A stretch of DNA of 64,000 nucleotides from contig NZ_CP021354.1 in NCBI RefSeq assembly GCF_003130705.1, forward strand, positions 2,976,001 through 3,040,000. The letters are read 5' to 3'. This document shows positions 26,734 to 47,229 of the stretch, one piece after another; within the stretch, counting starts at the first letter, position 1, and every line of letters starts with the position of its first letter. Below the pieces are notes generated by a model that saw only the letters and a program-made list of their open reading frames with translations, was not told the origin of the DNA and did not search any database. The DNA is from Rhodococcus oxybenzonivorans (GTDB lineage Bacteria; Actinomycetota; Actinomycetes; Mycobacteriales; Mycobacteriaceae). The translations under genes and the position numbers were made by a program.

Positions 26734-26803
26734 AGTTACAAAATCCGTCCGTGAGTGGTTGTCGTTGTCGGCTCTGGTTTCATCGGCCCGCCGTCGACTG
26801 CAG

Positions 26804-27607
26804 TCAAAGCCTGTCGGCTGTCTCCTCCACACTCGCGATCGGACGATCGAGCGCCTTGGCCAGTTCAGCGACGCGCTGGACCAGCGGCAGATTCCCCTGG
26901 CTCAGTTCACCTTTACGCAAGTAAAGCGTGTCCTCGAGACCCGCGCGCGCGTTGCCGCCCAACGCAAGTCCCATCGCAGTCAACTCCAAGTTGGCGCGGC
27001 CGATAGCAATCACCTGCCAGACGCAATCCTGTGGCAGACGATCAACCAGGGTGATGAGATTCGTTGCTGTCGCAGCCATACCGCCTCGTATACCGAGGAC
27101 TATCGAAAACTGCAGCGGCTCACCCGACAACACGCCTGCGTCCCGAAGCCGCAATGCCGCCTCGAGATGACCGGTGTCGTAAATCTCCAACTCCGGTTTG
27201 ACGCCGAGCTCTTCCATTCGGCGGGCCAACCGCTCTACGTCAGCCGGTGGGTTGCGGAATTCGCCGGCACCGAAACTCATACTGCACGGGTTCAGTGTCG
27301 CCATCTGCGGTCGCAACTCGACCAGCCGTTCGCGCTCCTCGAACGGGACCGACAGTCCCACTCCGGTGGACAGCTGGATGAGAATCGGGCAGCGTTCCGC
27401 GATTTTTTCCATGGTGATGCGGGCGATATCGATATCGGCGGTCGGCTGGTCCTGAGCATCTCTGATGTGTACGTGGGCTACCGACGCACCGACCTTATAC
27501 GCCTCGTGAACCTGCTCGGCGATCTCGTCCGGCTGTGTGGGTAGCCAGGCGTTGTCTGCCTTGGACGCGATCGGACCGGTTGTCGCAACCGTGATTGTGA
27601 CGCTCAT
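26804..27607 (-). CDS. beta-keto acid cleavage enzyme (BKACE, former DUF849)
   Basis: 267 residues, TIM-barrel family of 3-keto-5-aminohexanoate cleavage enzyme. The start VTITVATTGPIASKADN, zinc-binding VAHVHIRD and LSTGVG motifs, and the ELEIYDTGHLEAAL region are diagnostic. Characterised BKACEs react a beta-keto acid with acetyl-CoA to give acetoacetate and a shortened acyl-CoA. First gene of a leftward operon. A perfect inverted repeat 130 bases upstream matches sites before the dioxygenase and hydrolase genes, so it is likely under BphS/BphT-type control. Specific substrate unknown. Confidence 0.9.
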   Translation of the reverse strand: MSVTITVATTGPIASKADNAWLPTQPDEIAEQVHEAYKVGASVAHVHIRDAQDQPTADIDIARITMEKIAERCPILIQLSTGVGLSVPFEERERLVELRPQMATLNPCSMSFGAGEFRNPPADVERLARRMEELGVKPELEIYDTGHLEAALRLRDAGVLSGEPLQFSIVLGIRGGMAATATNLITLVDRLPQDCVWQVIAIGRANLELTAMGLALGGNARAGLEDTLYLRKGELSQGNLPLVQRVAELAKALDRPIASVEETADRL

Positions 27608-27737
27608 AATTTATTCGATTTCTCCTTTGCCACCGCGGTGTACTGGCCAACCCCGGCCCCGCAAGGGGAGCCTGCGTCGTGGCGGCTCGACCGCTGAGGC
27701 GGACCTTCCTCGTTAGTCAACGTTTTCAGGCACCCAT

Positions 27738-27766
27738 CCAACATCCGGTAAAACTACGGATGTTGG
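27738..27766. promoter_or_regulatory. BphT-type box, perfect inverted repeat
   Basis: Ten-base perfect arms (CCAACATCCG and complement) around a nine-base spacer. Read on the minus strand, spacer plus right arm matches the sequence upstream of the dioxygenase A1 gene and the hydrolase gene. It lies about 130 bases before the BKACE start. Candidate binding site for the response regulator at 43447. Confidence 0.7.
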
Positions 27767-27904
27767 CACCGCCGAGCGCCAGCTAGGTTGTGGTTTCGTC
27801 ATACATCCGCCCGCGGCCTGTCTCGCAACTTGATGCGTGATGGACCGCGGCTGTGGACGACGACGGCACGTCCCCCGCGTGGAGACGCGCCGCGATCAGA
27901 AGTG

Positions 27905-28436
27905 GACACCGTGTTCGAGTTTGCTTTTCGGTTTATCTCAGGCCGGCCGTGGGCCCATTCGTCGGCCAGGGTGCGGTGGAAGCGCTCGACTTTGCCGTTG
28001 GTATGGGGCCGGTAGGGTCGCGTTCTGCGGTGGCTGATGTTGCGTCGGCGAGCGCATCCCGGAAAGGATGCGACCGGTAGCAGGCTTCGTTGTCTGTCAA
28101 TATGTTTCGGACCGTGATGCCGAAGTTCATGAACCATGCATTGGCGCGGTCCAGAACGCGGCAGCGGTATCCTTTTGTTCATCGTCGAGCAACTCGCTGT
28201 GGGCCAGTCGGGGAGTGCGCATCGATAACGGTGTGCAGGAAGTGCTATCTGCGCGCCGGGCGGTGGAATTTGTCGAGTACACCGGTGCTGCGATCGGCGC
28301 GCGAGTTTCTCCTGCCCGCCGTACTGCCGAGCTTGCGCCATCCGCCGCCGGCGGGGAGCTTGCCAAGTTTCTTGACATCGGCGTGGACCAAGTCGCCGGG
28401 GCTGGCCGATGGGCCTTCCCCCCCTGATTGAGGACA
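27905..28436 (-). pseudogene. IS481-family transposase, frameshifted
   Basis: Pieces of an IS481 transposase appear in successive frames: GDLVHADVKKLGKLPAGGGW near 28400, HTVIDAHS near 28230, FGITVRNILTDNEACYRSHPFRDALAD near 28090, and HTNGKVERFHRTLADEWAHGRPE near 27960. These are the catalytic DDE domain in order. Several indels and a lost C terminus show it is dead. It borders the BKACE promoter region, so the insertion defines the edge of that operon. Confidence 0.8.
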
Positions 28437-28439
28437 TCC

Positions 28440-28790
28440 TGAACACTGGGTCGTTAAGGTCCCGGAGGAAGAGACCACCGGCACGTCCACGGCCGAGCTC
28501 CGGGCCAGCGGGGCGGCGCGGCCGGTGTCCCGGGCGTGCGAGGTGTCGTCCGAGTCCGCGTTGGAGGAAGAAAACAAGCAGCTCAAGGCCCAGATCCGGG
28601 AACTCGAAACCGAACGGGAGATCCTGCGCAGGGCCGCGAAATATTTCGCGGGCGAGACCAATCGGTGAGCCGATTCCAGTTCGTCGACGACCACTGCGAC
28701 ACCGCTGAAGGTGAAGCGGCTGTGCCAGATCCTCGAGATATCGCGACCATCTGGAGTCAAGATGCCACCCGCAGGGAGTGAACTCCAAGT
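28440..28790 (+). pseudogene. IS3-family transposase remnant (orfA end and orfB start)
   Basis: The orfA end is clear: a leucine-zipper segment LEEENKQLKAQIRELETEREILRRAAKYFAGE ending at TGA 28668. orfB starts with the usual overlap at GTG 28665 (VSRFQFVDDH) but loses frame after about 12 codons; the next family residues (VKRLCQILEIS) are in another phase and the rest is missing. Confidence 0.75.
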
Positions 28791-28883
28791 AGCTGAACTA
28801 CCTCGATGAGCTGTGACCGCCAGGGGCGCAGATCGCCATCGATCTATATCGTTTTTAGATTCAGAAGATCGAGGCCATGGTTC

Positions 28884-30083
28884 TCACGTGGGTTCCGCGT
28901 GGTGAGAATGTGCGACCCTTTCGCTGCGGCGCTGAGTCTGCCAGGTAAGCGCGACGACGGTACCAGTCATGACCGTCAATGCGGCCGCTGCGATGAAGAC
29001 GGCGATAGTCAAACCCCAGGAAGCTGCGACTGCGCCTACACCTAGCGCAGTACCGGCCTGCAGGACGTAGACGACGAGATAGAGCAACGACATGGTTGCG
29101 CCGCGGTGTTCGATTGGAGCGCGGTCGTTGATCAAACCCAGCCCCCCGGTGAACGCACACGAATAACCGGCGCCGCCAATGACGCACCACACGAGGAACA
29201 CCGCCAGTGAACCGCCGACGGACACGATAGCCATGACTGCCAGACTGATCAGTGTCAGGACTGCTCCTGTGTACACGGCGATGTGAGTCCGTAGCCGGGC
29301 CGACATCAACGCCGTAATTCCGATCGCGGCTGAGGACGAACCCAGAATCAGACCGGTTGTGAACACGTTGCTCTGCGGCGAGAATTGTCTGATCATCAGC
29401 GCCCCGATCGAGAGAAAAATCGCGCCAACACAGTAGGCCAGCGACACCGACAATGTGGCGGCTGCAAACGGCAATCGAAGTTCGGGGACTAGACGTACAT
29501 GAGCAGGACGCCACCGCGGCGGTGACACCGGACGATCGTCGCCCAGCATCGCCAGCGCAATTAAGGTCCCTAACGAGAGGACGAGCAACAATACGTAACT
29601 GACGACCAACGGAAATGGGGCGTACTGCACCAGAGCGCCGGCAGCGACCAACGCGGCGGTCAGACCCGTGGAAGTCGCCACGGCAGCGGACGCACTGGCG
29701 TATCGCGCGTGGGTCGATGGATTGTGTTCTACCAGGGCCGCACCGGCGGCCCCGATCGCCAGACCTGAACCTGCGCCTTGAAGGACACGGCAAGCGAACA
29801 ACAAGCCAACATTCGGCGCCAGCGCGAATAAAGTCGCGGAACCGGCGATGAGCGCGATGCCCCACATCATGACTACTCGTCGACCGATCGCATCCGACAA
29901 GTTGCCGAAGGCCAGTAATGCCGCGATAAGGGCGAGCGGATAGGTTGCGAACACCGCGGTGATGGTGGCGGGCGACAAGCCCCACGCATCGACGTATAGA
30001 GGGTAAAGAACACTCGGGGCGCCGCTCGACCACAATGCGACACCCAACGCTGTCGCCGCCACGAAGAAATTGGCTCTACGCAT
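28884..30083 (-). CDS. MFS transporter, drug/metabolite efflux type
   Basis: 399 residues with about 12 hydrophobic helices. The loop between helices 2 and 3 has FGNLSDAIGRRVVMMWG, a major-facilitator motif A, and RVLQGAGSGLAIGAAGAALVE is the helix-4/5 motif of 12-TM antiporters. Start ATG 30083 with AAGAG upstream is preferred to the longer frame, whose first 37 codons have no hydrophobic character. Probably exports a toxic aromatic or metabolite. It stands alone between IS remnants and an aldo/keto reductase, so the substrate is unknown. Confidence 0.85.
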   Translation of the reverse strand: MRRANFFVAATALGVALWSSGAPSVLYPLYVDAWGLSPATITAVFATYPLALIAALLAFGNLSDAIGRRVVMMWGIALIAGSATLFALAPNVGLLFACRVLQGAGSGLAIGAAGAALVEHNPSTHARYASASAAVATSTGLTAALVAAGALVQYAPFPLVVSYVLLLVLSLGTLIALAMLGDDRPVSPPRWRPAHVRLVPELRLPFAAATLSVSLAYCVGAIFLSIGALMIRQFSPQSNVFTTGLILGSSSAAIGITALMSARLRTHIAVYTGAVLTLISLAVMAIVSVGGSLAVFLVWCVIGGAGYSCAFTGGLGLINDRAPIEHRGATMSLLYLVVYVLQAGTALGVGAVAASWGLTIAVFIAAAALTVMTGTVVALTWQTQRRSERVAHSHHAEPT

Positions 30084-30553
30084 AGTCTCTTTCCAACTTC
30101 GAAGGGAGCACAGGTGAAGACGAGGCGGACCTGGGCGTTGAACACCGGGCGCCAGCGTCCCGTCCCCCGGCGGGTCGCTCTCAGCGACCCACACATTGGC
30201 GCCCTTGGAGGCGGCTTCGTCGATGTAGGCGGTGGTGGTGCTGACTTACCCCTCTACGCCATTGCGGTCGCGATCGGTGCCTTCCTTCCCGTTGCCTGGG
30301 CCTCCTCCGCGTCATAGACCCGCAACCAAGCTGATCCAGCGGCACGCCTCGCTTCCCGTCGTCGGACCGGACGAGGACGGACACGGCCAGTGTCACGTCG
30401 TCGCCGAGGCGGAAAGGTGCGGATTTCGCTTACGGCGGCCACGGTCAGCGAGATTTTCCCCTACGTCCCGGCCTCATACTCAGCTGAGAAGCGAAGAGAT
30501 GCATTGATCACTTGCTCCATTGACGCCGACGGCCGGCCATCCGAAAGCACCAA
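30084..30553. other. intergenic with possible nitrilase relic
   Basis: On the minus strand near 30185-30245 one frame reads TTTAYIDEAASKGANVWVAE, which resembles the N terminus of nitrilase-superfamily enzymes. There is no continuation, so at most this is a short relic. Otherwise nothing is seen. Confidence 0.3.
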
Positions 30554-31609
30554 TCAGGCAACCGGCGGCACTGGATCGGCAATTTGCCCGGACTGTCCGC
30601 CTTGAAGCCGGTTCTTGGACGAGGCGTTCGCCTCGTGGGGGATACCGAGAGCAACCGCACTGACCTCGGTCAGAAGGTCGTACTGCTCAGGTGTGAGCGC
30701 TAGGCTCAGTGCGTCGAGGTAATCATCCAGCTGAGCGACATTGCGTGGTCCGATGATGGGCGTGGATGGGGTTGCCGATCGCCGTGCGCGCTCGTTGACC
30801 CATGCCGTAGCTACCTGGGCGGGAGTACGCCCGATCTGATCGGCAATAGCGACCACCGTGTCGACCACCGCTCGCTTCTGATCGTTGGATTCCGTGTGCA
30901 CCAGAGTTTTCAGATCGGTAAGCCGTCCGTCGTCGCTGTGTCGGTACTTACCCGTCAGCAGGCCGCCACCGAGTGGTGACCACAGTGTGACACCCAAGCC
31001 GAGAGCCTGGGCCATAGGAAGCAACTCTCGATCGGCGGAACGTTCGACCAAGCTGTATTCGACCTGAATACCTGCAACCGGAGTCCACGCTGCTGCATCG
31101 GCTAACGCCACCGCGTGGGCAACGCGCCACGCAGGAAAGTTCGAGAACGCCGCATGTAAGATCTTTCCCTGAGTGACGAGGTCGTCCAGCCCTCGCATGA
31201 TCTCCTCGATAGGGGTCAGTGCATCGGGGTAGTGCACCCAGAGGACATCGATATAGTCGGTGTCGAGGCGCCGCAAGCTGTCCTCTACTGAGGTGCGGAG
31301 GTTCTTACGGCTGTTTCCAGTGCGCGAGAGGGTGCCGCCGGGCTTGGCGCCGACTGTGAATTTTGTTGCAAGAACCAGATCATCTCGATCAGCGTGAACG
31401 AACTCACCGAGTAGTTCTTCAGATTGACCGAACTGATAGGCATCGGCCGTGTCGATGAAGTTTCCACCCGCCTCAACGAAGCGGTCGAAGATCTGCTTCG
31501 CCTCATCACGTTCTGCGCCGGCACCCCATCCGGTCCCGAAGTTACCGGTGCCCAAGGCATACTGAGACACCCTCAGTCCGGTGCGGCGGCCGAAAGTGGT
31601 GTAGCGCAT
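30554..31609 (-). CDS. aldo/keto reductase
   Basis: 351 residues, NADPH-dependent (alpha/beta)8 barrel. The catalytic tetrad is visible: Asp and Tyr in GGNFIDTADAYQFGQSEE, Lys in DLVLATKFTVG, and His in DVLWVHYPDALTPIEE. The C-terminal cofactor segment STPIIGPRNVAQLDD is present. Start ATG 31609 has GGAG seven bases upstream. The gene diverges from the HxlR regulator, a common arrangement in which the regulator senses the reductase's aldehyde or quinone substrate. It might reduce aldehydes arising from side-chain oxidation, but this is inference. Confidence 0.9.
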   Translation of the reverse strand: MRYTTFGRRTGLRVSQYALGTGNFGTGWGAGAERDEAKQIFDRFVEAGGNFIDTADAYQFGQSEELLGEFVHADRDDLVLATKFTVGAKPGGTLSRTGNSRKNLRTSVEDSLRRLDTDYIDVLWVHYPDALTPIEEIMRGLDDLVTQGKILHAAFSNFPAWRVAHAVALADAAAWTPVAGIQVEYSLVERSADRELLPMAQALGLGVTLWSPLGGGLLTGKYRHSDDGRLTDLKTLVHTESNDQKRAVVDTVVAIADQIGRTPAQVATAWVNERARRSATPSTPIIGPRNVAQLDDYLDALSLALTPEQYDLLTEVSAVALGIPHEANASSKNRLQGGQSGQIADPVPPVA

Positions 31610-31700
31610 GTTCACACTCCAAGATATCAACACTGCTGACTTGTTATTTCAGAAGCTACATGGCGGACTTCGCTTGGGAAGTCAGAAATATAATCGCTGA

Positions 31701-32176
31701 ATGCCTTCTCGTTTCAAAGCTGTCGATGGCGCGTTCTCCAGTACGTGCGCGATCAACCGGAGTCTCGGAGTGCTCAGTGACACCTGGACCTTTCTGCTGC
31801 TGCGCGAAGCACTCCTGGGTAGGCGTACATACGCCGAGTTCGAGCAAAACCTCGGCATCGGCACGGCCGTGCTCGCTGATCGGATAGCTCACCTAGTCGA
31901 CTGCGGGGTGATGGAGAAGCTTCCCTATCGCATTCCGGTCAGAGAGTCCGTCACGCGTATTCGCTGACGCCGGCAGGAGACGAGCTCAGGATCGTCCTCG
32001 CGGCGCTTCATCAATGGGGCGCGGAACACCTGGCATCGTCGACGCCGCTCGCACGACTTCCCCTCGATCGCGCAATGCATCGCCGACTCCGAGTGGCCCT
32101 TATCGATGATCAAGGTCAAACGGTCGATAGTCAAGCGATGGAATTTTTCCCGGAGTCGTTTGCTACGCCAGATTGA
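31701..32176 (+). pseudogene. HxlR-family regulator, single-base frameshift
   Basis: The winged-helix core (INRSLGVLSDTWTFLLLREALLG, YAEFEQNLGIGTAVLADRI, LVDCGVMEKLPYR) is in one frame and the family C terminus (YSLTPAGDELRIVLAALHQW, MHRRLRVALIDDQG, ending SFATPD) is in another. Adding one G at the GG pair 31937-31938 restores a protein of about 158 residues. It is divergent from the aldo/keto reductase it would control. Either recently inactivated or misread. Confidence 0.75.
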
Positions 32177-32963
32177 TCTCGTGCGGATCGGGCCGGGTGC
32201 GCTCACCGAGACAGGATTTTCCATAGGTGCAATTCCATCCTGAGCGCGTCGCGGGGGATTCGATTGCATACTGCGAAGCGCCATGCGATCCGGTTCCCGA
32301 GGTGGTGATCAGGCCGCCGACCGAAAATACGAACACGGTTCGACCTTATCCTGCACGGATAGCGGGCAGCACGCCTATGTGACGGCGATCTGCGAGACCA
32401 CATTGACGTCGTGTTGTCGCGCGAGCTTGTTGATAGACAGACTCTCGCTGACGATAGGATCGGTAAGTCGTCGAGCATCGACCGTCCGCATCTCACCGGA
32501 CAAGGACGGTGTGTCCTCGATGCCGGCATCATCGAAGGACAACCTTCTGCGCGACGCCGTCGCCCGTGGTGACTACGGCAACCTCCGCGCTCTCGAACTG
32601 CCCGACAGGCACCAGGTTGATGGCGCGAACTCGCAACGCGTGTGCACAGCGGGGCGAAGAAGCTCCTCGGCAGGTTTATCAAGGTCTGCATGGCAGGTGG
32701 GGCAAACACGGTTCTGGAGTGCACGTTCAGTTGGCCAGAAGTTCACGATTCTCGACGTCGAAGCACCCGCAGAGATTCACCCATGCACGCGCCTCGACCC
32801 ACTCGTGGCGCGGCCGTCCCGTGGATGAACGAGAACGAAATCCGCCAGCCCCGGATTGTGGAACCGACTTGCGCACAGTCCCGTTCGGACTATCAGCGAA
32901 AGCCGAAGGCTTTGCGTCAAGCTCCCTGCACAGAACGGCTGATGAATCAGGACGCCGGTTCAG
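32177..32963. other. region upstream of the dioxygenase operon, no gene
   Basis: About 790 bases with overlapping short frames only. One plus-strand frame near 32500-32640 has protein-like texture (LLRDAVARGDYGNLRALELP), but I cannot assign it. It probably contains distal promoter elements. Confidence 0.35.
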
Positions 32964-34508
<1,545 letters not shown>

Positions 34509-34514
34509 CCGCCA

Positions 34515-34544
34515 CCGGAGGTCTCTCGCACGAGAGACCTCCGG
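34515..34544 (+). promoter_or_regulatory. perfect 14-bp hairpin between A1 and A2
   Basis: Fourteen-base perfect arms (34515-34528 and 34531-34544) with a two-base centre, seven bases after the A1 stop. No T tract follows. It could act as an attenuating terminator or an RNA-stabilising end that keeps large-subunit mRNA abundant. Confidence 0.65.
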
Positions 34545-34562
34545 CAGACACATAGGACCGCC

Positions 34563-35126
34563 ATGATCGATACAACGTCACCAACCATTCCGTTTCTTAC
34601 TAAACCAGCGCCCATCGACGTGGCGCTGCAGCAGGAAATAGAGCAATTCTATTACTGGGAAGCGAAGCTACTCAACGACCGCCGATACCCAGAATGGTTC
34701 GCACTCCTGGCGGACGACATCCATTACCTGATGCCGATTCGGACTACGCGCGTCATGCGTGAAGCTTCTCAGGAGTACAACGGTCCTAGGGACTACGCGC
34801 ATTTCGATGAAGATGCCCTGCAGATGCGTCAGCGTCTGCGCAAGATCACCTCGGATGTCAGCTGGTCCGAGAATCCCGCTTCGCGCACGCGGCACGTGAT
34901 CTCGAATGTCATGGTGGTCGATGGCGAGAGGTCCGGCGAATACGAGACGTCGAACGTCTTCGTCGTCTACCGAAACCGTCTGGAGCGGCAGGTCGACATC
35001 TTCGCAGGCGAACGCAAAGACCTGCTGCGGAGAACGGGCAGTGACAGCGGATTCGAAATCGTGCGACGGACAATATTGCTGGATCAGAGCACAATTCTGT
35101 CCAACAATCTCAGCTTCTTCTTTTAG
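34563..35126 (+). CDS. bphA2: ring-hydroxylating dioxygenase, small (beta) subunit
   Basis: 187 residues, NTF2-like fold. Typical motifs are [45 protein letters not shown] and the C-terminal [21 protein letters not shown]. It completes the alpha3beta3 hexamer with A1. Start ATG 34563 with AGGA just upstream. It is separated from A1 by 54 bases containing the strong hairpin and from the ferredoxin gene by nine bases. No defect. Confidence 0.95.
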
Positions 35127-35458
<332 letters not shown>

Positions 35459-35459
<1 letters not shown>

Positions 35460-36697
35460 TGGTCTCGACTATTGCGGTCGTCGGCAGTGGCGTCGCGGGC
35501 GTGGCTGCGGTGCAGGCGCTGCGGTCTGAGGGATATGACGGGCGTCTATTCCTGATCGGCAAAGAGAGGGAACATCCCTACGACCGCACCGCGCTCTCTA
35601 AAACGGTCCTGTGCGGAGAGAAGAGCCACCCTCCGCTGCTGTTACCGACGGACTCCATCGCCGACTTGCGGGTGGAGATGGTGCTGGACACGACGGCAGT
35701 GCGGTTGGACGTCGAACGTTGCGAACTCGAGTTCGACAATGGTTCCTCGCTGAAAGCCGATCGCGTGTTGCTGGCCACCGGAGCGCGTGCGCGCGCGGCA
35801 GCCATCCCCGGCGTGACGCTGGCCGGTGTTGCCACCTTACGGACCGCGACCGACGCCTATGAACTCCGCCAGCAGTGGCACCCGGGTCAACACCTCATCG
35901 TAGTCGGAGGAGGTCTGATCGGGTGCGAGGTCGCCACCACCGCCCGCAAGCTGGGCCTTGACGTCACCATCCTGGAAGCGTCGGACGAATTGCTCCAACG
36001 TGTTCTCGGTCGACGAATCGGTCGATGGTGCCGACAGCGTTTGGAAGAACTCGGCGTCACGGTCAGATTGAACGCAGGAGTGGCCGAGTTCACGGGCACC
36101 GATCGGCTCACCGGTGTTATCGACACCGCAGGAGAGGTTCTGTCCGCAGACTCCGCAATCCTGTGTGTCGGAGCCGAACCCGAGACAATGCTTGCCGAGG
36201 AGTCCGGACTGCGCTGCAGTCGCGGCATTGTCGTCAACGCCTCCGGCGGTACCGGTGCCGAGAGTGTCTTCGCCGCTGGCGACGCCGCTTCGTGGCCCCT
36301 TCGAACAGGCGGTCGACGATCGCTCGAAACCTACATCAACAGCCAGAAGGAGGCCGCCGCCGTCGCGTCGGCGATGCTCGGCAGCCCCGTTCCCGCTGCA
36401 CAGGTACCTCTGTCCTGGACCGAGATTGCTGGTCGTCACATTCAGATGGTCGGGGATATCGAGGGAGCCGGCACTTTCGTCGCGCGAGGAAATCTCGAGG
36501 ACGGCGCAGCTGTGCTGTTCAGGGTGGACAACGGCAGCGTGATGGCCGCGGTTTCGGTAGATGCGCCGCGCGACTTCGCCATGGCGGCTCGTCTCGTCGA
36601 CGCTGGCCTCCATGTGAATCAGGACGCTCTCTCGGATTCGGATATGGAGTTGCGAAAAATTTATCAAGCAGCTCGTCGCGAAGCGGCACTTACGTGA
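35459..36697 (+). CDS. bphA4: ferredoxin-NAD reductase component
   Basis: 412 residues, FAD- and NAD-binding reductase of the three-component dioxygenase. FAD site at the N terminus ([24 protein letters not shown]), NAD site [23 protein letters not shown], and FAADDAA-type [13 protein letters not shown] near 280. The C-terminal domain ([19 protein letters not shown]) is present. The start at 35459 overlaps the ferredoxin stop; longer upstream frame is unrelated. Normal length, no defect. Confidence 0.94.
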
Positions 36698-37567
<870 letters not shown>

Positions 37568-37686
37568 CTGCGCCCCGTCTACTGGCGCGCGAGGTCTCAC
37601 TCGCCCGCCGGTAGCGCGTTTCCACCGTCGCCACACGGCGATCGGTGACTATCGACGGCGAAAGCCGCGTTCGGAAAGGCTGGAAA

Positions 37687-38562
37687 ATGAGCGTTCAACG
37701 ACTCGGTTACATGGGCTTCGAAGTATCAGATGTGCAGGCCTGGCGGTCGTTCACAACTGAGAAGCTGGGTGCGATGGAGGCTGCTGGAGACGACAACTCG
37801 GCTCGGTTCAGGACCGACAGCCGCAGCTGGCGACTGTCGGTCGAGAAGGGTGCGTCGGATGACATCTCGTTCGCCGGCTTCGAAGTCGACAACGCGGAGG
37901 CACTGCACGCAATCGGCGAGCGTCTCGAATCGCAGGGCATCAAGGTGACCGCGGAGGGTAGCGAGTTGGCGGCAGATCGGGGTGTCCTCGGGCTGATCTC
38001 GTGTTCGGACCCGATGGGCACGCGAGTCGAGATCTACTATGGTGCGACAGAGCTGTTCGAGGAGCCGTTCGTCTCGCCGACCGGCGTCGGATCGTTCCTC
38101 ACCGGCGACCAGGGTCTCGGCCATTACGTGATGGCCGTGCCGGACATCGACGCTGCCATGGAGTTCTACGTCGAGGGTTTGGGCTTGCATCTGTCCGACA
38201 TCATCGACTGGACGCTTCCCGGAGATGTGAAGGCAAAACTTCACTTCCTGCACTGCAATGGCCGCCACCACAGCTTGGCGATCGTCGGTCTTCCGCAGAC
38301 CAAGAAGCTTCACCACTTCATGCTCGAGCTCGAACGCATGGACGACGTCGGTTTTGCCTATGACAAGTTCGACGCGGACCAGTCGGTGGTCATGACGCTC
38401 GGTCGCCACACCAACGACCACATGCTTTCGTTCTACGGCGCAACCCCGTCAGGTTTTGCTGTCGAGTACGGCTGGGGGGCTCGGCAAGTTGAACCGGGAT
38501 GGTCGGTAGTGCGCTACGACAAGATCAGCATGTGGGGCCACAAATTCGTGGGGAGTCACTAG
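37687..38562 (+). CDS. bphC: extradiol dioxygenase, 2,3-dihydroxybiphenyl/alkylcatechol 1,2-dioxygenase
   Basis: 291 residues, two-domain type I extradiol dioxygenase. Iron ligands are H146 (GLGHYV), H210 (KLHHFML) and E260 (FAVEYGWG), exactly at family positions; the [10 protein letters not shown] loop with H241 and Y250 is present. The sequence resembles Rhodococcus EtbC more than BphC1 from memory ([12 protein letters not shown] ending), pointing to alkylcatechols. Cleaves the ring next to the diol. ATG 37687 follows a GGAAA ribosome site. About 120 bases separate it from bphB. Confidence 0.93.
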
Positions 38563-38654
38563 GGCTGCGGCACACGTCCCAAGTCGTGGTGTGAACGCCC
38601 GTCGTAGGACACAATGATCTGGATGGCAACGATGCCACCGATGTGGAGTACAGC

Positions 38655-39320
38655 ATGCGATTCGACACCGTGAGGGTGCTCCGGGACAGTCCTGGCATCA
38701 CGACCACACTGGCCCTGTCGGACGAGGCGCACGACCGGTTCGTGGTGAGGCGCCTCGACCTGTCGATGGAGCGGCCGTGGAGTGCGCAATGGTTAGAGGG
38801 CGAGCTCGAGGCCACCTGCAGGGCTCGGCTACCGCACATCGTTCCCACCCGGATCGTCCGCAAGGGCCCTGATTACGTCGAGCTGGTCCGGCCCTTCGTC
38901 GCCGGTCTCGATATCCGGGAATGGCACGCCCAAGAGCCACGTGTGTCGAGCGAGGCCGAGCTCGAGCTGGTGTGTAACCTGTTCTATGCGCTGGCGCGCC
39001 TGCACCGCATGGGCATCGCCCACGGCGGAGTCCGGCCAGCCAACATCATGCTCACCGAGGGCAGCAACGAACTCGTGCTCCTCGACGCCACCGTGACGCG
39101 CAGTCAACTCGGTGGCCTGACCCATCCGGCCGATCTGACCGAAAGCCGATATCTTCTTCCAGAAGGACATGGACTGGCACACCCGACGGCGGGCTTTGCT
39201 GCCGACATCTATGCCGCGGGCTGGGTTGTGCTCGAGGCGCTCGCAGAAACCAATAGGACGGCCAGCGCCCTGCGCAGGGTGAAACCGCAGGACGATGCGT
39301 TCACCGAGCCCTCCCACTAG
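38655..39320 (+). CDS. bphS: BphS-type sensor kinase, N-terminal part (broken by frameshift)
   Basis: 221 residues up to TAG 39318-39320. This is a Ser/Thr-kinase-like domain with degenerate catalytic loop (MGIAHGGVRPANIML instead of HRDIKPxN), as in actinobacterial BphS sensors. The domain is incomplete: its last helix (PLRPIFLKLLDPRAGQRFETAEDVL) is encoded at the start of the next ORF in another frame. Adding one C to the CCC run 39313-39315 joins both into one protein of about 1600 residues, matching the known size class of BphS. ATG 38655 has GGAG six bases upstream. Confidence 0.8.
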   Translation: MRFDTVRVLRDSPGITTTLALSDEAHDRFVVRRLDLSMERPWSAQWLEGELEATCRARLPHIVPTRIVRKGPDYVELVRPFVAGLDIREWHAQEPRVSSEAELELVCNLFYALARLHRMGIAHGGVRPANIMLTEGSNELVLLDATVTRSQLGGLTHPADLTESRYLLPEGHGLAHPTAGFAADIYAAGWVVLEALAETNRTASALRRVKPQDDAFTEPSH

Positions 39321-42300
39321 TGGACATCGTTGGCGTCCCAGCCCCGCTGCGCCCGATATTTTTGAAGCTGCTCGATCCGCGGGCAGGCCAGCGGTTCGAA
39401 ACCGCAGAGGACGTGCTCGCGGCCGCCGAAGCGGTTGTCGCGACCGGCAGCAGGGAGACCAGGCCAACCTCTGCCGGCGCGCCGTCCGGCCACCACGGCT
39501 CGCTCGCGTACATGGAGCCGCCGCTGGTAGGCAGGAGTGACGAACTTGCCGCACTCACCGCAAGCATCGACGGCGCAGCCCGGTCGCAGGGAACGGTGAT
39601 GTGCTTGAGCGGTGAGTCGGGGGTTGGAAAGAGCCGCCTGCTGGATGCGGTAGTCGCTCACGCCGAGGAGGCCGGGGTGACTCTGATGCGAACGGGTGCG
39701 TTCGACCATGCGCCGGCACGTCCACTCGGACTCTTCGCCGGCCCCTTGCGCGACGTGGTTGCCTACTTGATGGCCAACCCTCTCGCAGCGCAGCGAGTGC
39801 GCGAAGACATGGCTGACCTGCTTCCCGCGGCACTCGAGCAAGTACCGGAATTAGCCGAAGCGTTGGAAGAAAATTGGCCCGCCGCGCATGGTGCGCAGCG
39901 GTCGTTCACCAAGAACACGGCGCCCGCCGGGCCGACGTCGATCGCCCGACTACTTCTGTCCGTCTTCGATGAAGAACGCCCTGGGTTGATCGTGCTCGAC
40001 GACTGCCAATGGGCAGACGATCTCAGCTGGCAAGTGCTCGCGAGGCTGGCCGCGACGATATCGAGCGATAGAACGCGCTCCGATTCGAACGTCTCGCTGA
40101 TCTGTTCTTGCCGAACGGAAGCTGTTGCACAGGTGTTTGCCTGGGGCGTCACCGACATCACATTCGTCGGGCTGGAAAGCCTGTCGGACAAAGACACAGA
40201 GACACTGATCCGGTCCATCAGTGACGGCATTCCCGACGAGGTCATCCCTTACGTCACGAAGTACTCCAAGGGCAATCCGCTCGAAACGCTGCTGGCCTTC
40301 CAGGCGCTGGTCGATTCGTCGGCGCTGAAGCACAAGTCTGACCGCTGGTTTCTGGACGAGAGCGCGATGGCAGCACTGGCGTTGCAACCCCACATCCACG
40401 ATTCGCACGCTGCGCTGGGGAACAGCGGCGCGCGAACCGATGTGCTCATTTCGCCGCGGTTGAGCCTGCTGTCGCCGGAAACAGAGCGGGCAATCCGTCA
40501 AGGCGCGGTGCTGGGGCGCCGGTTTTCCTCACGGCTCTTACAGGTGTGCCTACAGGCCAGCCCGACGGACGTCGAACAGCTCATGATGGAAGCAGCCCAG
40601 CTCAGAATTGTGCGCCGCGTCGCCGATGGCGATGGCAACGAATTCGAATTCGCACACGATCGGCTCCGCGAAGCCGTACTGGGAAACCTGACAGACGCCA
40701 CCCGCCGGGAGCTGCATTTGCGCGCGGCGCATGCACTCCAGGGCCACTTCGAAGTTCGAGCCGACTACGACATCGCCTATCACTTCGACCAAGCCGGTCG
40801 CGCCGCGTCTGCGGTGCCCTTTGCTCTGCGCGCGGGCGAGGCGGGGCTGAGGCGCAACGCACTCGATGTCGCCGAGCGCAACTTCAAGATCGCCGAGACG
40901 GGACTCGCCCTGTGCGAATCCGCGGACGACATCGCGAGGTTTCGCCTGTACGAAGGCCTTGGTACGGTCCACATGCTTCTCGGGAGCTACGACCTGGCTG
41001 CGCACGAACTGGCCCGCGCACACGAATTTACCGGTACGCATTCGGGACTTGACGCTGCACGAATCGCAGCTCTGCTCGGTGAACTTGCCTTCAAAACAGG
41101 CCGATTCGACGACGCCACAGATTGGATGCAGCGGGGTATGCACGGCCTCGACCTGAGGATGCCGCGAAGTTCGGCCCATGCCGGTCTTCTGGCCGTCGGC
41201 GAGGTCGGTCTCCTCGCATTGGGATGGTTGTCTCGCCGACTACGTTTGGGCCGGGCGCCCGTCGATACGGAGCGCTGCCGTCTGGCCGCTCTGATCCATG
41301 ACCGGCTGGTGTATCAACTGTGGTTCATCAAGTCACCGATCTGGGTGGCGTTGGCGATTCTGCGTTGCGCACGTTTCGCCAATACCGCCGGCGGCACTCG
41401 TGAGCGCGCACACGCATACTGCGGCGCTGCCGTGATCGCCGGGATTGCCCCCATCCTCGCGCCACTCGCGTTGCGGCTAGCCGACTTCTCATTGCGACTC
41501 AGCCAGACCGCCGGCGACGACTGGGGGATCGCCCACGCGCACCATTTTCGAGGATTCGCCCTCTACGCCGCGAACCGGTATGACGCCGCGATCGCAGCGT
41601 TCGACACCGCGAACACCGGCTTCGACGTACTTGGTGATCGTTGGGAACAGGTAGCCGCGATGTGGCAGAAATCGCTGTGTCTGGCACGGCAGGGAAAGCT
41701 GCACGAAGCCGGAACGCTGGCGCGGGACACGTATTGGGAGGGTAAACGCAGAGGCGATCGAATCGGTGCGGGAACCGCCCTTGCCATCTGGGTTCAGTGC
41801 CTTCCCGGTGACGTCAATGTCGAGACGATTGCCCGCGAAGTCCGGTTGACGAACCCTGGCGATCATCACACCCTGGCGATGTTGCACGCGGCGCGGGCGT
41901 GGCGACTGTTCCACACCAAGCAGTACGCACCAGCCCTCGACGCGTTTCGGCAGGCGGACGAGATCATACGTGCCTCTGGCTTGCGGAACCACTTCCTCGT
42001 CCCAATCCTCACCTCATATCTTCAGGTTCTCCGTCTCTCGCTCGCAGCAGGACCCGACCCGTGGACCGCGGAATACCGTGACCAGGCGAAAACGGCCCGG
42101 CGCCTGCTTCGCCGCGCACGTCGGTTGGCGGTCGTCTTCTGCAGTGAGCGGCCCGCGGTATTGCGGGAATGGGCACTGGCGTCGTTCTCTCAGCGACACA
42201 AATGGCGTGGGCGCATCCTGCTGGGCGCCGCCTGTCGCAGCGCACACCGCCAACAAGCGCAAGGCGAACTTGCCGCATGTGCCCTGGTTGCGGCATTGGT

Positions 42301-43450
42301 GGGACTCGAGCCCCGACGGGGGCCGCTGCGCGGCCTGCCGCCGCTGGCCGAACAATGCCTATCGCTCGGCATACGGGTGGATGGTGCGATTGTCGAATCG
42401 GCGCACCCACGCGAGCTATTCGTCGGCAGGGGTCCAGCCCGTCACCGTGCCCTTCTCGACGCCGTGAGCTCCATTGTTGCGTCCGATGATCTCGATGAGG
42501 TTCTTGACAAGCTGCGAGACGCCACCTTCGCTACGACGACCGCGCGGCGGGTGGAAATCGCTGACGGGCCAGCGCCGAGCGACCTGGTCGGGGTTCATGA
42601 GCCATTGCCGACGCCATTGTTCGGAGATTCGAGGACGGTCGGCGAAGGCCCGGAGATGAGGGTGACCGATCGCCTCTCTGTGCGGGTCCCCGTAGACGGG
42701 CACGCCGAAAAGTCAATCATCGCCGCCTTTCCGCTCGGGGAAGGGGAGTACCACCGGCCAACCATGGAGGTTCTGGCCGCGCTCGCCGGCGCCGTGATCG
42801 AGCGGGAAGGTCTTCGGCGGCAGTCCGTCGAACAGATGGTTGCCGTTCAGGAAGCCGAGCGGGGGAGAATCGCACGAGATCTGCACGACGAGTTCGGTCA
42901 CCTGTTCGCCACGGTGATCGACAGACTCAGCACGCTACAGAACTCCGAAAGCCCGACAGCGCGCCAGACCGCCGCCGACGTCCGGAAGATCGTCCGTCAG
43001 GGAATACAGGTTGCCCGATCCGTCGCGTGGTCATTGAGGCCTTCGGGGCTCGATGACCTCGGGCTCATCGGGTGCGTTGAACAATATGTCGAGGACTGCC
43101 GTCAGATCTACCCGATCCGCATCGAACTCATCTCTCCGACACGGCCGCCAGCCCTCTCGGCTGCAGTCGCTACCGCCATCTTCCGGATCGTGCAGGAGGC
43201 ACTCACCAATATCGGCCGACACAGCGGCGCCAGCGAGGCCAGCGTCACGATCGTGAACTCCGGTGATGCTCTGCGTGTCGTAGTCGAAGACAACGGCACC
43301 GGATTCGATCTCGAGGTCGCCGGTCAGCGTCGTTCCCTCGGGTTGATCGGAATGCGCGAACGGGCGCGCCTTGCTGGTGGACGGCTGAGTGTCGAATCCC
43401 CTCCAGGACAAGGCGTGACGATCATGGTGGAGGTGCCAATCGAACGATGA
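39320..43450 (+). CDS. bphS: BphS-type sensor histidine kinase, main part
   Basis: 1376 codons from GTG 39320. Order: end of the kinase-like domain (1-40), AAA/STAND ATPase with Walker A GESGVGKSRLLD near 100 and Walker B LIVLDDCQWADD near 218, a long TPR-like helical region, a GAF-like segment near 1040-1150, then HisKA_3 (RGRIARDLHDEFG, phospho-His near 1190) and HATPase (VQEALTNIGRHSG; EDNGTGFD; GLIGMRERA). Cytosolic sensor that would detect aromatic hydrocarbons and phosphorylate BphT. The GTG overlapping the TAG could be a coupled start, but an unbroken single ORF is more likely. The stop overlaps bphT (ATGA). Confidence 0.9.
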   Translation: MDIVGVPAPLRPIFLKLLDPRAGQRFETAEDVLAAAEAVVATGSRETRPTSAGAPSGHHGSLAYMEPPLVGRSDELAALTASIDGAARSQGTVMCLSGESGVGKSRLLDAVVAHAEEAGVTLMRTGAFDHAPARPLGLFAGPLRDVVAYLMANPLAAQRVREDMADLLPAALEQVPELAEALEENWPAAHGAQRSFTKNTAPAGPTSIARLLLSVFDEERPGLIVLDDCQWADDLSWQVLARLAATISSDRTRSDSNVSLICSCRTEAVAQVFAWGVTDITFVGLESLSDKDTETLIRSISDGIPDEVIPYVTKYSKGNPLETLLAFQALVDSSALKHKSDRWFLDESAMAALALQPHIHDSHAALGNSGARTDVLISPRLSLLSPETERAIRQGAVLGRRFSSRLLQVCLQASPTDVEQLMMEAAQLRIVRRVADGDGNEFEFAHDRLREAVLGNLTDATRRELHLRAAHALQGHFEVRADYDIAYHFDQAGRAASAVPFALRAGEAGLRRNALDVAERNFKIAETGLALCESADDIARFRLYEGLGTVHMLLGSYDLAAHELARAHEFTGTHSGLDAARIAALLGELAFKTGRFDDATDWMQRGMHGLDLRMPRSSAHAGLLAVGEVGLLALGWLSRRLRLGRAPVDTERCRLAALIHDRLVYQLWFIKSPIWVALAILRCARFANTAGGTRERAHAYCGAAVIAGIAPILAPLALRLADFSLRLSQTAGDDWGIAHAHHFRGFALYAANRYDAAIAAFDTANTGFDVLGDRWEQVAAMWQKSLCLARQGKLHEAGTLARDTYWEGKRRGDRIGAGTALAIWVQCLPGDVNVETIAREVRLTNPGDHHTLAMLHAARAWRLFHTKQYAPALDAFRQADEIIRASGLRNHFLVPILTSYLQVLRLSLAAGPDPWTAEYRDQAKTARRLLRRARRLAVVFCSERPAVLREWALASFSQRHKWRGRILLGAACRSAHRQQAQGELAACALVAALVGLEPRRGPLRGLPPLAEQCLSLGIRVDGAIVESAHPRELFVGRGPARHRALLDAVSSIVASDDLDEVLDKLRDATFATTTARRVEIADGPAPSDLVGVHEPLPTPLFGDSRTVGEGPEMRVTDRLSVRVPVDGHAEKSIIAAFPLGEGEYHRPTMEVLAALAGAVIEREGLRRQSVEQMVAVQEAERGRIARDLHDEFGHLFATVIDRLSTLQNSESPTARQTAADVRKIVRQGIQVARSVAWSLRPSGLDDLGLIGCVEQYVEDCRQIYPIRIELISPTRPPALSAAVATAIFRIVQEALTNIGRHSGASEASVTIVNSGDALRVVVEDNGTGFDLEVAGQRRSLGLIGMRERARLAGGRLSVESPPGQGVTIMVEVPIER

Positions 43451-44076
43451 CCAGCGTAATAGTCTGCGACGACCACGGCATCATCCGCTCCGGTATCGCG
43501 CGCATCCTCGAGACCACCCCGGACTTCCAGCTGATGGCGTCCCCATCAACCGGGACGCGTCTTATGGAAACGTTGCAGCACGTCAAGCCGGACCTACTCG
43601 TCCTCGACATTCGACTAACCGATTGCAGTGGTCTCGACCTTTTGGGGCAGATTTCCATCGTCGCACCAGAAACCCGTGTCGTGATGCTCAGTATGTACGG
43701 CGCCAAGGGGTACATCGACAAGGCCAAGGCGCGGGGTGCGCGAGGTTACATCACCAAGGAATGCCTCGACGAGGAGCTTGTATCGGTCCTGCATGCGGTG
43801 ATGCGGGATGAAGGATTTATTTCCTTCCCTTCAGCGACGCCCAACACAGGGAGTCGCGAAAAATTCTCCGAGGCCAACATTGACGCACTGTCTTCGCGGG
43901 AACTCGAGGTGATGAAACTTATCGCGTCCGGCCTCACCAACACGGAAATCGGCGAGGAACTTACTGTCTCACCACGAACTGTCGAGAGCCATCGGGCCAG
44001 CATCCAACGCAAGCTGATGATCCGTACGCGTGCCGAACTTGCCCGCGTAGCCCGAGACGCGGGCCTTCTGGACTAG
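43447..44076 (+). CDS. bphT: BphT-type response regulator (NarL/LuxR)
   Basis: 209 residues. Receiver domain with acidic pair D8-D9, phospho-acceptor D54 (LLVLDIRL) and K in GYITKE; C-terminal LuxR helix-turn-helix (LSSRELEVMKLIASGLTNTEIGEELTVSPRTVESH). Partner of the sensor kinase encoded immediately upstream with ATGA overlap. By precedent in Rhodococcus it activates the dioxygenase promoter and scattered degradation operons. The shared inverted repeats before A1, D and the BKACE gene are the obvious candidate sites. Confidence 0.93.
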   Translation: MTSVIVCDDHGIIRSGIARILETTPDFQLMASPSTGTRLMETLQHVKPDLLVLDIRLTDCSGLDLLGQISIVAPETRVVMLSMYGAKGYIDKAKARGARGYITKECLDEELVSVLHAVMRDEGFISFPSATPNTGSREKFSEANIDALSSRELEVMKLIASGLTNTEIGEELTVSPRTVESHRASIQRKLMIRTRAELARVARDAGLLD

Positions 44077-44232
44077 ATCGTCGCGCGAGAGGGCATTCCT
44101 GGTCGCGGGGGCCCAGGCGTGGCGCCCGTCGACTGATCCTGTCAATATCGCAGTGATGCAACGGCATTCCGAAGCGAGCTGCGAGCCCGAATCTTCGCAG
44201 CGCGTGCAATCTGCGGCGTCGACGTGATGTGG

Positions 44233-44255
44233 ACATCCGTAGTTTTCCCGGATGT
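44233..44255 (+). promoter_or_regulatory. BphT-type box upstream of the hydrolase
   Basis: Seven-base perfect arms (ACATCCG and complement) around a nine-base spacer, about 70 bases before the hydrolase start. The spacer and right arm match the A1 and BKACE sites. Confidence 0.7.
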
Positions 44256-44325
44256 TCGGCGAGTCCCCGAACACGTTAACTGGATCACAGACACAGATGA
44301 ATGTAAACGAAGGAAGGGCCCGCCG

Positions 44326-45159
44326 ATGACTGTATCGACAGAAACGACAGAACAGCCAGGATCCACGATCGAGGTAGCCGGAATCGCCACGAACTTCCAT
44401 GAGGCAGGATCGGGCGACCCCGTGTTGCTTCTGCACGGCTCAGGACCCGGCGTATCGGCGTGGGCGAACTGGCAGCACACCATCCCGGTGCTCGCTGAGC
44501 GTCACCGCGTGCTGGCGCCCGACCTCGTCGGGTTCGGCTACACGGAGCGCCCCACCGACATTCGATATTCTGCGCAAACGTGGATCGATCACGTATGGGG
44601 ATTCCTCGATGCGATGAAGATCGAACGCACTTCGATCGTCGGCAACTCGCTAGGGGGTTTTCTCGCTTTGGCCACGGCCATCAAGCGCCCCGAACTTCTG
44701 AATCGGATGGTGCTGCTGGGTACTCCAAGCCCTGGAATGACCCCCAGCGAGGGCCTAGCCGCACTGCGCACATACGAGCCTTCGTTGAAGGGCATGGAGG
44801 AACTGCTCATCAAGTATTTCGCCGTCGATCCGACCATCATCACCCCCGAACTCGTCCAACTCCGGCACGAGGCCAGCATCGCCCCCGGGGCATTCGAGAC
44901 GTACCGCAAGATGGAGATCAACCCCAAGACCGGGGCCAGCGAGCTAGGAATCGAGGCAGGTGATTACGCCCGCATCGCCACCCCGACCCTGGTCGTCCAC
45001 GGCCGTGAGGATCGCGTAATTCCGGTCGAGGCGGGGATCAACCTGATGAACACGCTGCCGAATGCTGATCTTCACGTCTTCAGTCGCTGCGGCCATTGGA
45101 CGCAGGTCGAGCGGGCAAGCGAATTCTCGGCGGTCGTGGATCGGTTTCTGTCGAACTAG
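44326..45159 (+). CDS. bphD: meta-cleavage product hydrolase (HOPDA-type)
   Basis: 277 residues, alpha/beta hydrolase of the C-C hydrolase group. It splits the ring-cleavage product into a carboxylic acid and 2-hydroxypenta-2,4-dienoate, which the hydratase at 4.4 kb could process. Motifs: LLLHGSGPG near 35-42, nucleophile S108 in VGNSLGG, Asp in HGREDRVIP, His in RCGHWTQ. ATG 44326 is eight bases after AAGGAAGGG, and is preferred to the longer frame. Own promoter box. The TAG stop coincides with the end of an IS5-type element, so the last residue or two may have been altered by insertion. Confidence 0.92.
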   Translation: MTVSTETTEQPGSTIEVAGIATNFHEAGSGDPVLLLHGSGPGVSAWANWQHTIPVLAERHRVLAPDLVGFGYTERPTDIRYSAQTWIDHVWGFLDAMKIERTSIVGNSLGGFLALATAIKRPELLNRMVLLGTPSPGMTPSEGLAALRTYEPSLKGMEELLIKYFAVDPTIITPELVQLRHEASIAPGAFETYRKMEINPKTGASELGIEAGDYARIATPTLVVHGREDRVIPVEAGINLMNTLPNADLHVFSRCGHWTQVERASEFSAVVDRFLSN

Positions 45160-46104
45160 GGCATCTCCGACAAATGTTGGGTCCAGGCGATGACGGCGTT
45201 GAGGACCACTGCGGCTCGGTAGACGATGGTGAGTTTGTCGTAGCGGGTGGCCAGTCCTCGCCATTGTTCTAGATGACAGAACCGGCGTTCGACGACGTTG
45301 CGACCCCGGTAGTCATCACGGTCGAATGCTGGTGGGCGGCCGCCGAGTGAACCCCGCCGGCGCCGATGTCCGGCCTGATCGTCCGGTTCCGCGATCACCG
45401 CCCCGATTCCGTGGCGGCGTAGTAGGTGGCGGTGGGCTCGCGAGGAGTACGCCTTTGTCGCCCCGGACTCGATCCGGGCGGGTGCGGGGACGCCCACCAC
45501 CGGCACGCGGTACCTGCAGGTGTGCGAGCAGGTAGGAAAAAGCTGGTGAATGGCCCGACTGCCCCGGCGCCACCAACACCACCAGCGGTAACCCGTGACC
45601 GTCGACGAGCTGATGGATCTTGGTCGACAAGCCGCCGCGGGAGCGGCCGATGGCGTGGTCATGCGGCTCGAGGTGTGGATTCGTGTAATTCGATCCAGTC
45701 CCCTGTGTGGCGGGTGACGTTCGTGGCGTGCTGATGGGCGCGAGCGATGGTCGAGTCCACCGACACCGCCCAGTCGATCATTCCGGAGGCGTCGGCCGCG
45801 GTCAGAAGCCGTTCGAGCACTCGATCCCAGGTGCCGTCACCGGCAAGCCGCCGATGCCAGGTCCAGATTGTCTGTCAGGGGCCGAACACCTGCGGAACGT
45901 CGCGCCAGGCGATCCCGCACCGATACCGGTAGATGATGTCCTCGGCGATCGACCGGGCATCGGCGAACGGACGACCACGCCGACCCGTACGGGCCGGCAA
46001 CAGCTCCGCGATCGCATCCCATTGTTCATCCGACAACACCTGAAACCGAGTCACCCGAACATCATCGTGCACCACGCTTCACATGTTTGTCAGACGCGCC
46101 CTAG
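45157..46104 (-). mobile_element. IS5-family element with frameshifted transposase
   Basis: The transposase reads leftward from ATG 46075 (VTRFQVLSDEQWDAIAELLPARTGRRGRPFADARSIAEDIIYRYRCGIAWRDVP), then hits a stop; later parts appear in other frames (WTWHRRLAGDGTWDRVLERL, WAVSVDSTIARAHQHATN, DDYRGRNVVERRFCHLEQWRGLATRYDK). Imperfect terminal repeats begin GGGC at both ends (left near 45159, right near 46102), flanked by CTAG on both sides, a plausible target duplication. About 945 bp, standard size. Non-autonomous because of the frameshifts. Confidence 0.82.
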
Positions 46105-46105
46105 G

Positions 46106-46278
46106 CCAGTTCACACCCCCCAGGACGGCTCGCCCCCATCGGCGCCATCGCCGAGAACTTCGAATTCCTCGGATACGCTGTCGTTGGCGCATTCGCTATC
46201 ACCTGGACAGCCACGCTGGTACTGACCCATCGCCAGGTCACCCCGCACCATGCACCGGTGAACCGGGCTGTCCCATAA
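46106..46278 (+). pseudogene. C-terminal fragment, possibly nickel/cobalt transporter
   Basis: Directly after the IS5 end one frame reads IGAIAENFEFLGYAVVGAFAITWTATLVL and stops at TAA 46276-46278. The pattern (acidic-N-F, G-Y, one hydrophobic helix) fits the last helix of NiCoT-type metal permeases. Everything upstream is gone, so insertion or deletion removed the gene body. Family call is tentative. Confidence 0.4.
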
Positions 46279-46367
46279 ATCTTCCCACCCGACCCGGCGC
46301 TGGATTGCTATGCCCTGGAAGAGATGAACCGTGCCAACCGCACCGTCCATACCGGAGATGGAAATGC

Positions 46368-46684: not shown

Positions 46685-46922
46685 CGATACGCCAGGCCAG
46701 TGCGGTCGGATTTGGGGTCCGTCTCTACAGGGCGTTCGCGGGACGCCCATCCTCGGGCGACCATCTTCAGGGCGTATCGACAGCACCGTAAGTCGATGCA
46801 TCCGATGAAATACGGAGCAGTCAAGTTGACATAATATGTGTTGTCGTCAATCGAAAACTATTGTGGTGCAATAACATAGAGACGGAATGTAACGGATGCG
46901 CCTCGAACGCCGACCTCCCGGG

Positions 46923-47222: not shown

Positions 47223-47229
47223 ACGCGTT

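Follow-up and report, generated by a model that had tools for sequence, protein, structure and literature searches.

Which genes, beyond those that attack and open the ring, does an aromatic-responsive two-component system switch on? The question is raised by a 64,000-nucleotide stretch of Rhodococcus oxybenzonivorans (contig NZ_CP021354.1, positions 2,976,001 to 3,040,000; the whole stretch is called the window below), in which ring-dioxygenase genes, a BphS/BphT sensor and regulator pair and a hydrolase gene lie on one strand and a gene group beginning with a beta-keto acid cleavage enzyme (BKACE) lies on the other. We consider it probable, at roughly 0.8, that BphT controls the BKACE operon, a judgement made from sequence comparison. 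The operon, which encodes BKACE, a hydratase, a coenzyme A (CoA) transferase and a tautomerase, is accepted as a predicted new target of BphST that would add genes of a kind not seen before in this known regulon. The original prediction had proposed such a branch of the regulon, used when the aromatic hydrocarbon is present. As a prediction the branch is upheld by box identity, the recognition helix, promoter geometry, orientation, genome-wide specificity and the co-occurrence of box and BphT; its use under that condition is what we infer.

The sites on which this reading rests are the following.

27740 to 27763, minus strand: BphT-type 24-bp box before the BKACE operon (ACATCCGTAGTTTTACCGGATGTT), within the inverted repeat 27738-27766
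32957 to 32980, plus strand: BphT-type box before A1, the dioxygenase large-subunit gene (GGTTCAGTAGTTTTCCCGGATGTT)
44233 to 44256, plus strand: BphT-type box before the hydrolase gene, D (ACATCCGTAGTTTTCCCGGATGTT)

The core TAGTTTTNCCGGATGTT is found at 27740-27756 (minus strand), 32964-32980 (plus) and 44240-44256 (plus). The same 17-mer stands before A1 and the hydrolase, and the BKACE-side 17-mer has one base changed (TAGTTTTACCGGATGTT), as had been claimed. The intervals first given for the exactly shared sequence, 32964-32981 and 44239-44256, were one base too long or shifted by one, though the sequence itself is indeed shared exactly. Inspection of the arms also confirmed the perfect 10+9+10 inverted repeat described at 27738-27766, with two perfect 10-base arms and a 9-base spacer. 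The hydrolase and BKACE sites have in common a palindromic 24-mer, ACATCCGTAGTTTTNCCGGATGTT, of which they are the sole two genome sites at up to three mismatches; the A1 box, unlike them, has GGTTCAG as its left half. Taking a BphST box as a site upstream of a gene that resembles the core TAGTTTTCCCGGATGTT, the BKACE gene has one, at a single mismatch. The BKACE operon points the opposite way and runs away from A1, as the original prediction had it, and all three sites have the same orientation relative to the gene downstream. The bases between box and start codon number 148 for A1 (start 33129), 69 for the hydrolase (start 44326) and 132 for BKACE (start 27607). No box was found before either the MFS transporter gene or the aldo/keto reductase gene, which lie between the BKACE promoter and A1.

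How specific is this pattern? Across the whole genome (8,014,224 bases in four contigs), the core TAGTTTTNCCGGATGTT at up to three mismatches gave 21 matches, three of them exact, none with one or two mismatches and 18 with three. The reversed pattern gave 20 matches in the same genome at the same threshold, so the three-mismatch matches are at chance level. All three exact matches fall within 16.5 kb of the window, and at least three matches at up to three mismatches were seen in 0 of 100 dinucleotide shuffles of the window (mean 0.07). Could the sites nonetheless be chance resemblances without regulatory meaning? Isolated 17-mers do arise in unrelated organisms: a scan of GTDB contigs (257 Gb), for which we roughly estimate about 120 chance matches, yielded at least 117 stretches with no Rhodococcus title among the 80 of them inspected, and it was not used as evidence. 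Chance is nevertheless scarcely credible here: the only sites at up to two mismatches in the 8 Mb genome, three in number, fall within 16.5 kb, and all are upstream of genes, equally oriented, and tied to BphT across plasmids as described next.

The same 17-mer precedes bphA1 in Rhodococcus jostii RHA1 (pRHL1) and in R. opacus B4 (pROB02), the reported location of the 24-bp BphS1T1 box, and the A1 and hydrolase sites are therefore boxes of a known type. In both extracted loci (L035 and L034) the box occupies 14790-14813 and the bphA1 match begins at 15001. The genome that we read as RHA1 has six sites at up to two mismatches, five of them plasmid-borne, and the identical 17-mer recurs on its plasmids beyond the bphA1 site. 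According to the accessible part of PMC11881993, a BphST sequence of 24 bp lies 185 bp ahead of bphA1 in R. opacus C1. Our identification of the box rests on the RHA1 DNA together with that source and PMC10282184, each seen in part, and not on the published 24 bases themselves. The original prediction had assumed that one BphST system serves dispersed promoters in Rhodococcus, and the portion of PMC10282184 at hand agrees, with five gene clusters induced by BphS1T1 in RHA1. Since dispersed BphST promoters are already known, the A1 and hydrolase sites are not new.

The distribution of the box is narrow. A 20-base pattern at up to two mismatches occurs in 5 of 401 family genomes, with 13 of the 14 sites in four of the five; these are the host itself, three genomes agreeing in coordinates with records of RHA1, B4 and R. 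pseudokoreensis, and one with a weak two-mismatch match that was set aside (G058). The reversed-pattern control gave three matches in the 401 genomes. At the level of the order, matches at up to two mismatches occur in 4 of 358 genomes, namely the host and three with single two-mismatch matches in other families, which are taken as chance. In the plasmid collection the BKACE promoter matched eight records through the box (25-26 bases, E 0.6-2), all Rhodococcus, and a BphT search at E ≤ 1e-50 returned nine records, including all eight; the BKACE box query did not hit the ninth, from strain WAY2.

The regulator that would read these boxes is encoded between the A1 and hydrolase boxes, next to its sensor.

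38643 to 39320, plus strand: BphS N-terminal kinase-like part, 225 amino acids, in a frame that differs from the rest, unlike RHA1 and B4
39320 to 43450, plus strand: BphS main part (AAA, TPR, HisKA_3, HATPase), 1376 amino acids, 72% identical to RHA1 and B4
43447 to 44076, plus strand: BphT, a NarL/LuxR-type response regulator (receiver plus LuxR-type helix-turn-helix), 78% identical to RHA1 BphT

Between residues 147 and 209, a span of 63, the BphT encoded in the window departs from that of RHA1 at three positions, and the predicted recognition helix, which we take to be VSPRTVESHRASIQRKL, is identical in the two. The second-closest regulator to BphT in its own genome is 40% identical. Elsewhere in the window, 14339-17929 encodes a 1196-residue protein with kinase, AAA and MalT-like TPR parts, a build that recalls BphS minus the histidine kinase.

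Do the boxes also sit in promoters of the same build? A weight matrix was made from six boxes (A1, D and four RHA1 sites), with the BKACE site excluded. By this matrix the BKACE site has 33.1 bits; A1 and D, both inside the matrix, have 36.6 and 35.9 bits, the six boxes left out in turn have 25.3-35.5 bits, and outside the boxes the window nowhere exceeds 12.4 bits. Of the 18 three-mismatch sites of the host genome, 17 were scored and rejected as boxes, the best of them having 17.2 bits. A whole-genome matrix scan had been proposed originally, with a matrix from the three sites. The part carried out, with the six-box matrix on the window and 17 loci, separates the BKACE site; the 8 Mb were covered by the core pattern alone, and boxes more than three mismatches from the core elsewhere in the genome would escape. 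Downstream of each box lies a putative -10 element.

27715 to 27720, minus strand: -10-like hexamer TTGACT of the BKACE promoter, 19 nt from the box end, three of six bases as in TATAAT, putative start
32999 to 33004, plus strand: -10-like hexamer CACAAT of the A1 promoter, 18 nt from the box
44276 to 44281, plus strand: -10-like hexamer TTAACT of the hydrolase promoter, 19 nt from the box

The hexamer lies 18 nt after the box in A1 (CACAAT), RHA1 bphA1 (CACTAT), RHA1 38760 (CACACT) and RHA1 122563 (TTTACT), and 19 nt after it in D (TTAACT), RHA1 44070 (TTGAAT) and BKACE (TTGACT). The match to TATAAT is three or four of six in all seven promoters, which is weak singly and comes without a computed chance expectation for hexamer or spacing. 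Three sites that by eye lack the expected -10-like hexamer, namely the RHA1 chromosomal site (two mismatches) and those in G009:C5 and G016, were left out of comparison and matrix, and the near-identical copies RHA1 106774 and G010 423375 were left out of both as redundant.

The perfect palindrome raises another explanation, in which some other regulator acting locally, such as a repressor of the TetR or GntR type, uses it as operator and the likeness to a BphT box is secondary. Its 10+10 arms are indeed better than those of the other boxes compared, and many repressor sites, like NarL-type sites, are dyads. A dyad-binding repressor, however, need not conserve the spacer, and the asymmetric spacer here matches that of the D box at eight of nine bases; nor was a Pfam regulator found among the subset of open reading frames (ORFs) scanned at 19.4-27.6 and 27.8-32.8 kb. 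We regard a local operator as distinctly improbable. The palindrome was also considered as the end of an insertion sequence and rejected: blastn of 27600-28900 against the host genome gave only the stretch itself, the D promoter and two short matches, and the nearby IS481-like DNA is about 180 bp off.

What, then, does the BKACE box precede? The genes on the minus strand are listed in their order of reading.

26804 to 27607, minus strand: BKACE (PF05853), 267 amino acids, Pfam 288 bits, 1.1e-85
25918 to 26733, minus strand: crotonase-family enoyl-CoA hydratase/isomerase, with an ATG start chosen inside the ORF 25918-26832
24669 to 25913, minus strand: class III CoA-transferase (CaiB/BaiF, PF02515)
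24259 to 24669, minus strand: tautomerase-superfamily protein, malonate semialdehyde decarboxylase (MSAD)-like

With the chosen starts, the first and second genes are about 70 bp apart, the second and third 4 bp, and the third and fourth overlap by one base, and an operon is likely because of this close packing; the following minus-strand ORF considered (23165-23710) starts about 550 bp past the tautomerase. BKACE has both features taken to mark its family, the PF05853 match and an HxH, here within HVHIR, which is presumably the metal-binding motif. It scores under the cut-off of each of the four NCBIfam models listed (best 270.5 against 382), and its substrate is therefore not assigned. It ends (26804-26806) eight residues short of two close relatives (267 against 275 amino acids). 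The best NCBIfam match of the CoA-transferase is a formyl-CoA transferase model, at 210.7 against a cut-off of 442. The tautomerase has Pro-1, Asp-37, Arg-73 and Arg-75 of Pseudomonas pavonaceae MSAD, the residues being those named in the available part of PMC10606566; Phe and Val align with the hydrophobic-wall residues Trp-114 and Phe-116, and positions 123 and 128 lie beyond the alignment. We call it MSAD-like, a candidate for that activity. Two ORFs at 22613-23710 have no Pfam match, and their relatives (58% and 52%) lie about 11 kb from bphA1 on RHA1 pRHL1 (L035 2633-3625). Between the BKACE promoter and the MFS gene, a stretch at about 27941-28402 resembles IS481-type transposase genes.

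The operon is rare. At E ≤ 1e-60, two of the 28 genus genomes have BKACE relatives, and at E ≤ 1e-80 nine of the 401 family genomes do, the host included. At the eight other family loci no crotonase, CoA-transferase and tautomerase adjoin BKACE as here; at one locus (L189), about 6 kb separate BKACE from a crotonase match that is distant (35%). The CoA-transferase, at E ≤ 1e-120, was found in 1 of 401 family genomes, the host itself, and in no viral contigs. Tautomerase homologues in the protein collection number 13 at E ≤ 1e-15. Among the best 120 of 2082 BKACE matches, which are proteins without gene context, are relatives 85-94% identical, one named R. aetherivorans. A literature search, mostly outside subscription journals, gave, among the titles listed, none on BKACE or further targets of the BphST regulon. 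In R. opacus B4 (pROB02; L034 2093-9734), genes for a CoA-transferase, an enoyl-CoA hydratase and a hydroxyacyl-CoA dehydrogenase run upstream of bphA1, followed by an IclR regulator; no box was found at this acid-processing set at up to six mismatches to the 24-mer.

The BKACE and D promoters are 82% identical over 49 bp (blastn in the host genome, E 1.7e-5). The D-promoter stretch GAACACGTTAACT has, besides itself, two matches at up to two mismatches among 128,007 window positions, and its BKACE counterpart at that offset departs from it by two bases. Such similarity would be given by shared function or by a copied promoter. In the latter case the BKACE box would derive from the hydrolase promoter by copying or rearrangement and would perhaps be bound by BphT but have no physiological role, and the operon would be driven otherwise or be silent. 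The 49-bp identity would fit this, as would the IS481-like transposase DNA about 180 bp upstream, the rarity of the operon and a BKACE without the last eight residues of its close relatives. Yet box and -10-like hexamer keep the spacing of the other box promoters, the box is oriented as expected and lies at a fitting distance from the start codon, and the four genes are open and closely packed. We hold a copied promoter to be unlikely, if the most serious of the alternatives to control by BphT.

Several points weigh against that control and must be set beside the evidence for it. The similarity just described could stem from the copying of a DNA segment. Where the boxes of A1, D and RHA1 bphA1 carry C, that of BKACE carries A, and the -10-like hexamer of the BKACE promoter agrees with TATAAT at only three positions of six. 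No second genome with the operon was found among the 401 family genomes, and the link between box and operon consequently rests on one locus. Finally, BphS is split by a change of frame relative to the single-frame BphS of RHA1 and B4: at 39318-39322 one base fewer than in RHA1 and B4 creates, after the kinase-like domain, an overlapping stop and GTG start (TAGTG). The split may impair the sensor; alternatively, the gene may have divided naturally or the sequence may contain an error, and translational coupling at TAGTG could keep both parts.

To see what the BKACE operon might do, we turn to the pathway with which it would be co-regulated.

33129 to 34508, plus strand: A1, ring-hydroxylating dioxygenase large subunit, 79% identical to RHA1 bphA1
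34563 to 37567, plus strand: A2, A3, A4 and B (small subunit, ferredoxin, reductase, dihydrodiol dehydrogenase)
37645 to 38562, plus strand: C, 2,3-dihydroxybiphenyl 1,2-dioxygenase, above the TIGR03213 cut-off
44326 to 45159, plus strand: D, alpha/beta hydrolase, scoring under the HsaD and BphD cut-offs

B and C exceed the NCBIfam cut-offs for BphB and BphC, and D is taken as the meta-cleavage product hydrolase. The five ORFs scanned beside it (45156-47939) include no 2-hydroxypentadienoate hydratase, aldolase or acetaldehyde dehydrogenase; genes of the lower pathway may be located in another place, or that pathway may differ. The cluster sits on the largest contig of the host, and the RHA1 sites used are plasmid-borne.

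In the mechanism that we propose, BphS, made as two adjacent ORFs, would sense the aromatic hydrocarbon and phosphorylate BphT. Response regulators of the NarL/LuxR type are usually pictured as activators that touch RNA polymerase from the -35 position. Phosphorylated BphT would likewise bind the 24-bp box, its right half at the -35 position and 18-19 nt before the -10-like hexamer, and recruit RNA polymerase. It would thereby turn on A1A2A3A4BC(ST), the hydrolase gene D and the oppositely directed BKACE-crotonase-CoA-transferase-tautomerase operon. Ring pathways of the BphD type release 2-hydroxypenta-2,4-dienoate plus a side-chain acid. The likeliest role of the BKACE operon is processing of the acid released by the hydrolase, whereby this acid, or a beta-keto acid made from it, would be converted to CoA esters and acetoacetate.

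A more specific scheme is offered as speculation, and we think it quite improbable: the operon would be the BphT-switched three-carbon arm of the ring cleavage of a vinyl-arene such as styrene. The hydrolase would release acrylate, which the CoA-transferase and crotonase would convert to 3-hydroxypropionyl-CoA, and oxidation by the host would lead on to malonate semialdehyde. Decarboxylation of malonate semialdehyde would fall to the MSAD-like tautomerase; BKACE would join it to acetyl-CoA, yielding formyl-CoA and acetoacetate, and the class III CoA-transferase would salvage the CoA. The available part of PMC11961710 terms this BKACE reaction of malonate semialdehyde and acetyl-CoA new-to-nature, and the operon, if the scheme is true, would be a natural setting for it.

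Why does it matter whether the BKACE operon belongs to the regulon? Regulons of the BphST type are known for ring-attack and meta-cleavage genes, and membership of this operon would extend their reach to the processing of the released acid. Its regulation would also offer a clue to what this orphan BKACE acts on. The locus makes a clean test case: its palindromic box is perfect and stands 132 bp ahead of a start codon, and the genome has a single close BphT and no more than three boxes at up to two mismatches to the core.

Among known systems, the BKACE family (Kce; PF05853) shares with the window protein the Pfam match and HVHIR, but the protein scores under the cut-offs of all four NCBIfam models. 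AkbST of Rhodococcus DK17 and R7 is alike in being a sensor/regulator pair, and a DK17 plasmid carries a BphT-like protein plus a box match; in R7, according to the accessible part of PMC6080516, an akbS insertion slowed growth on o-xylene, and that part, unlike the window, mentions no BKACE operon. ThnST, of the tetralin regulon of Rhodococcus sp. TFB, has in common a LuxR-type regulator, an 18-bp sequence like that of biphenyl-inducible promoters and co-controlled genes for CoA esters (beta-oxidation). In the portion of PMC6563040 available, point mutations in this similar 18-bp promoter sequence lowered induction and extra copies of thnST raised it. Unlike in the window, the acid-processing genes of TFB form part of the thn operon and have been assigned to the beta-oxidation of pimelate, with no BKACE in the protein table of that source as seen in part. 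BphS1T1/BphST of R. jostii RHA1, with its bph and etb promoters, has the same box, the same promoter spacing and relatives of BphS and BphT; there too, A1 and an ORF read as encoding a hydrolase each have a box in front. At E ≤ 1e-60 no relative of BKACE was found in the genome read as RHA1 (G005), and the window differs from RHA1 in a bphS that forms two ORFs and in the extra box before the BKACE operon.

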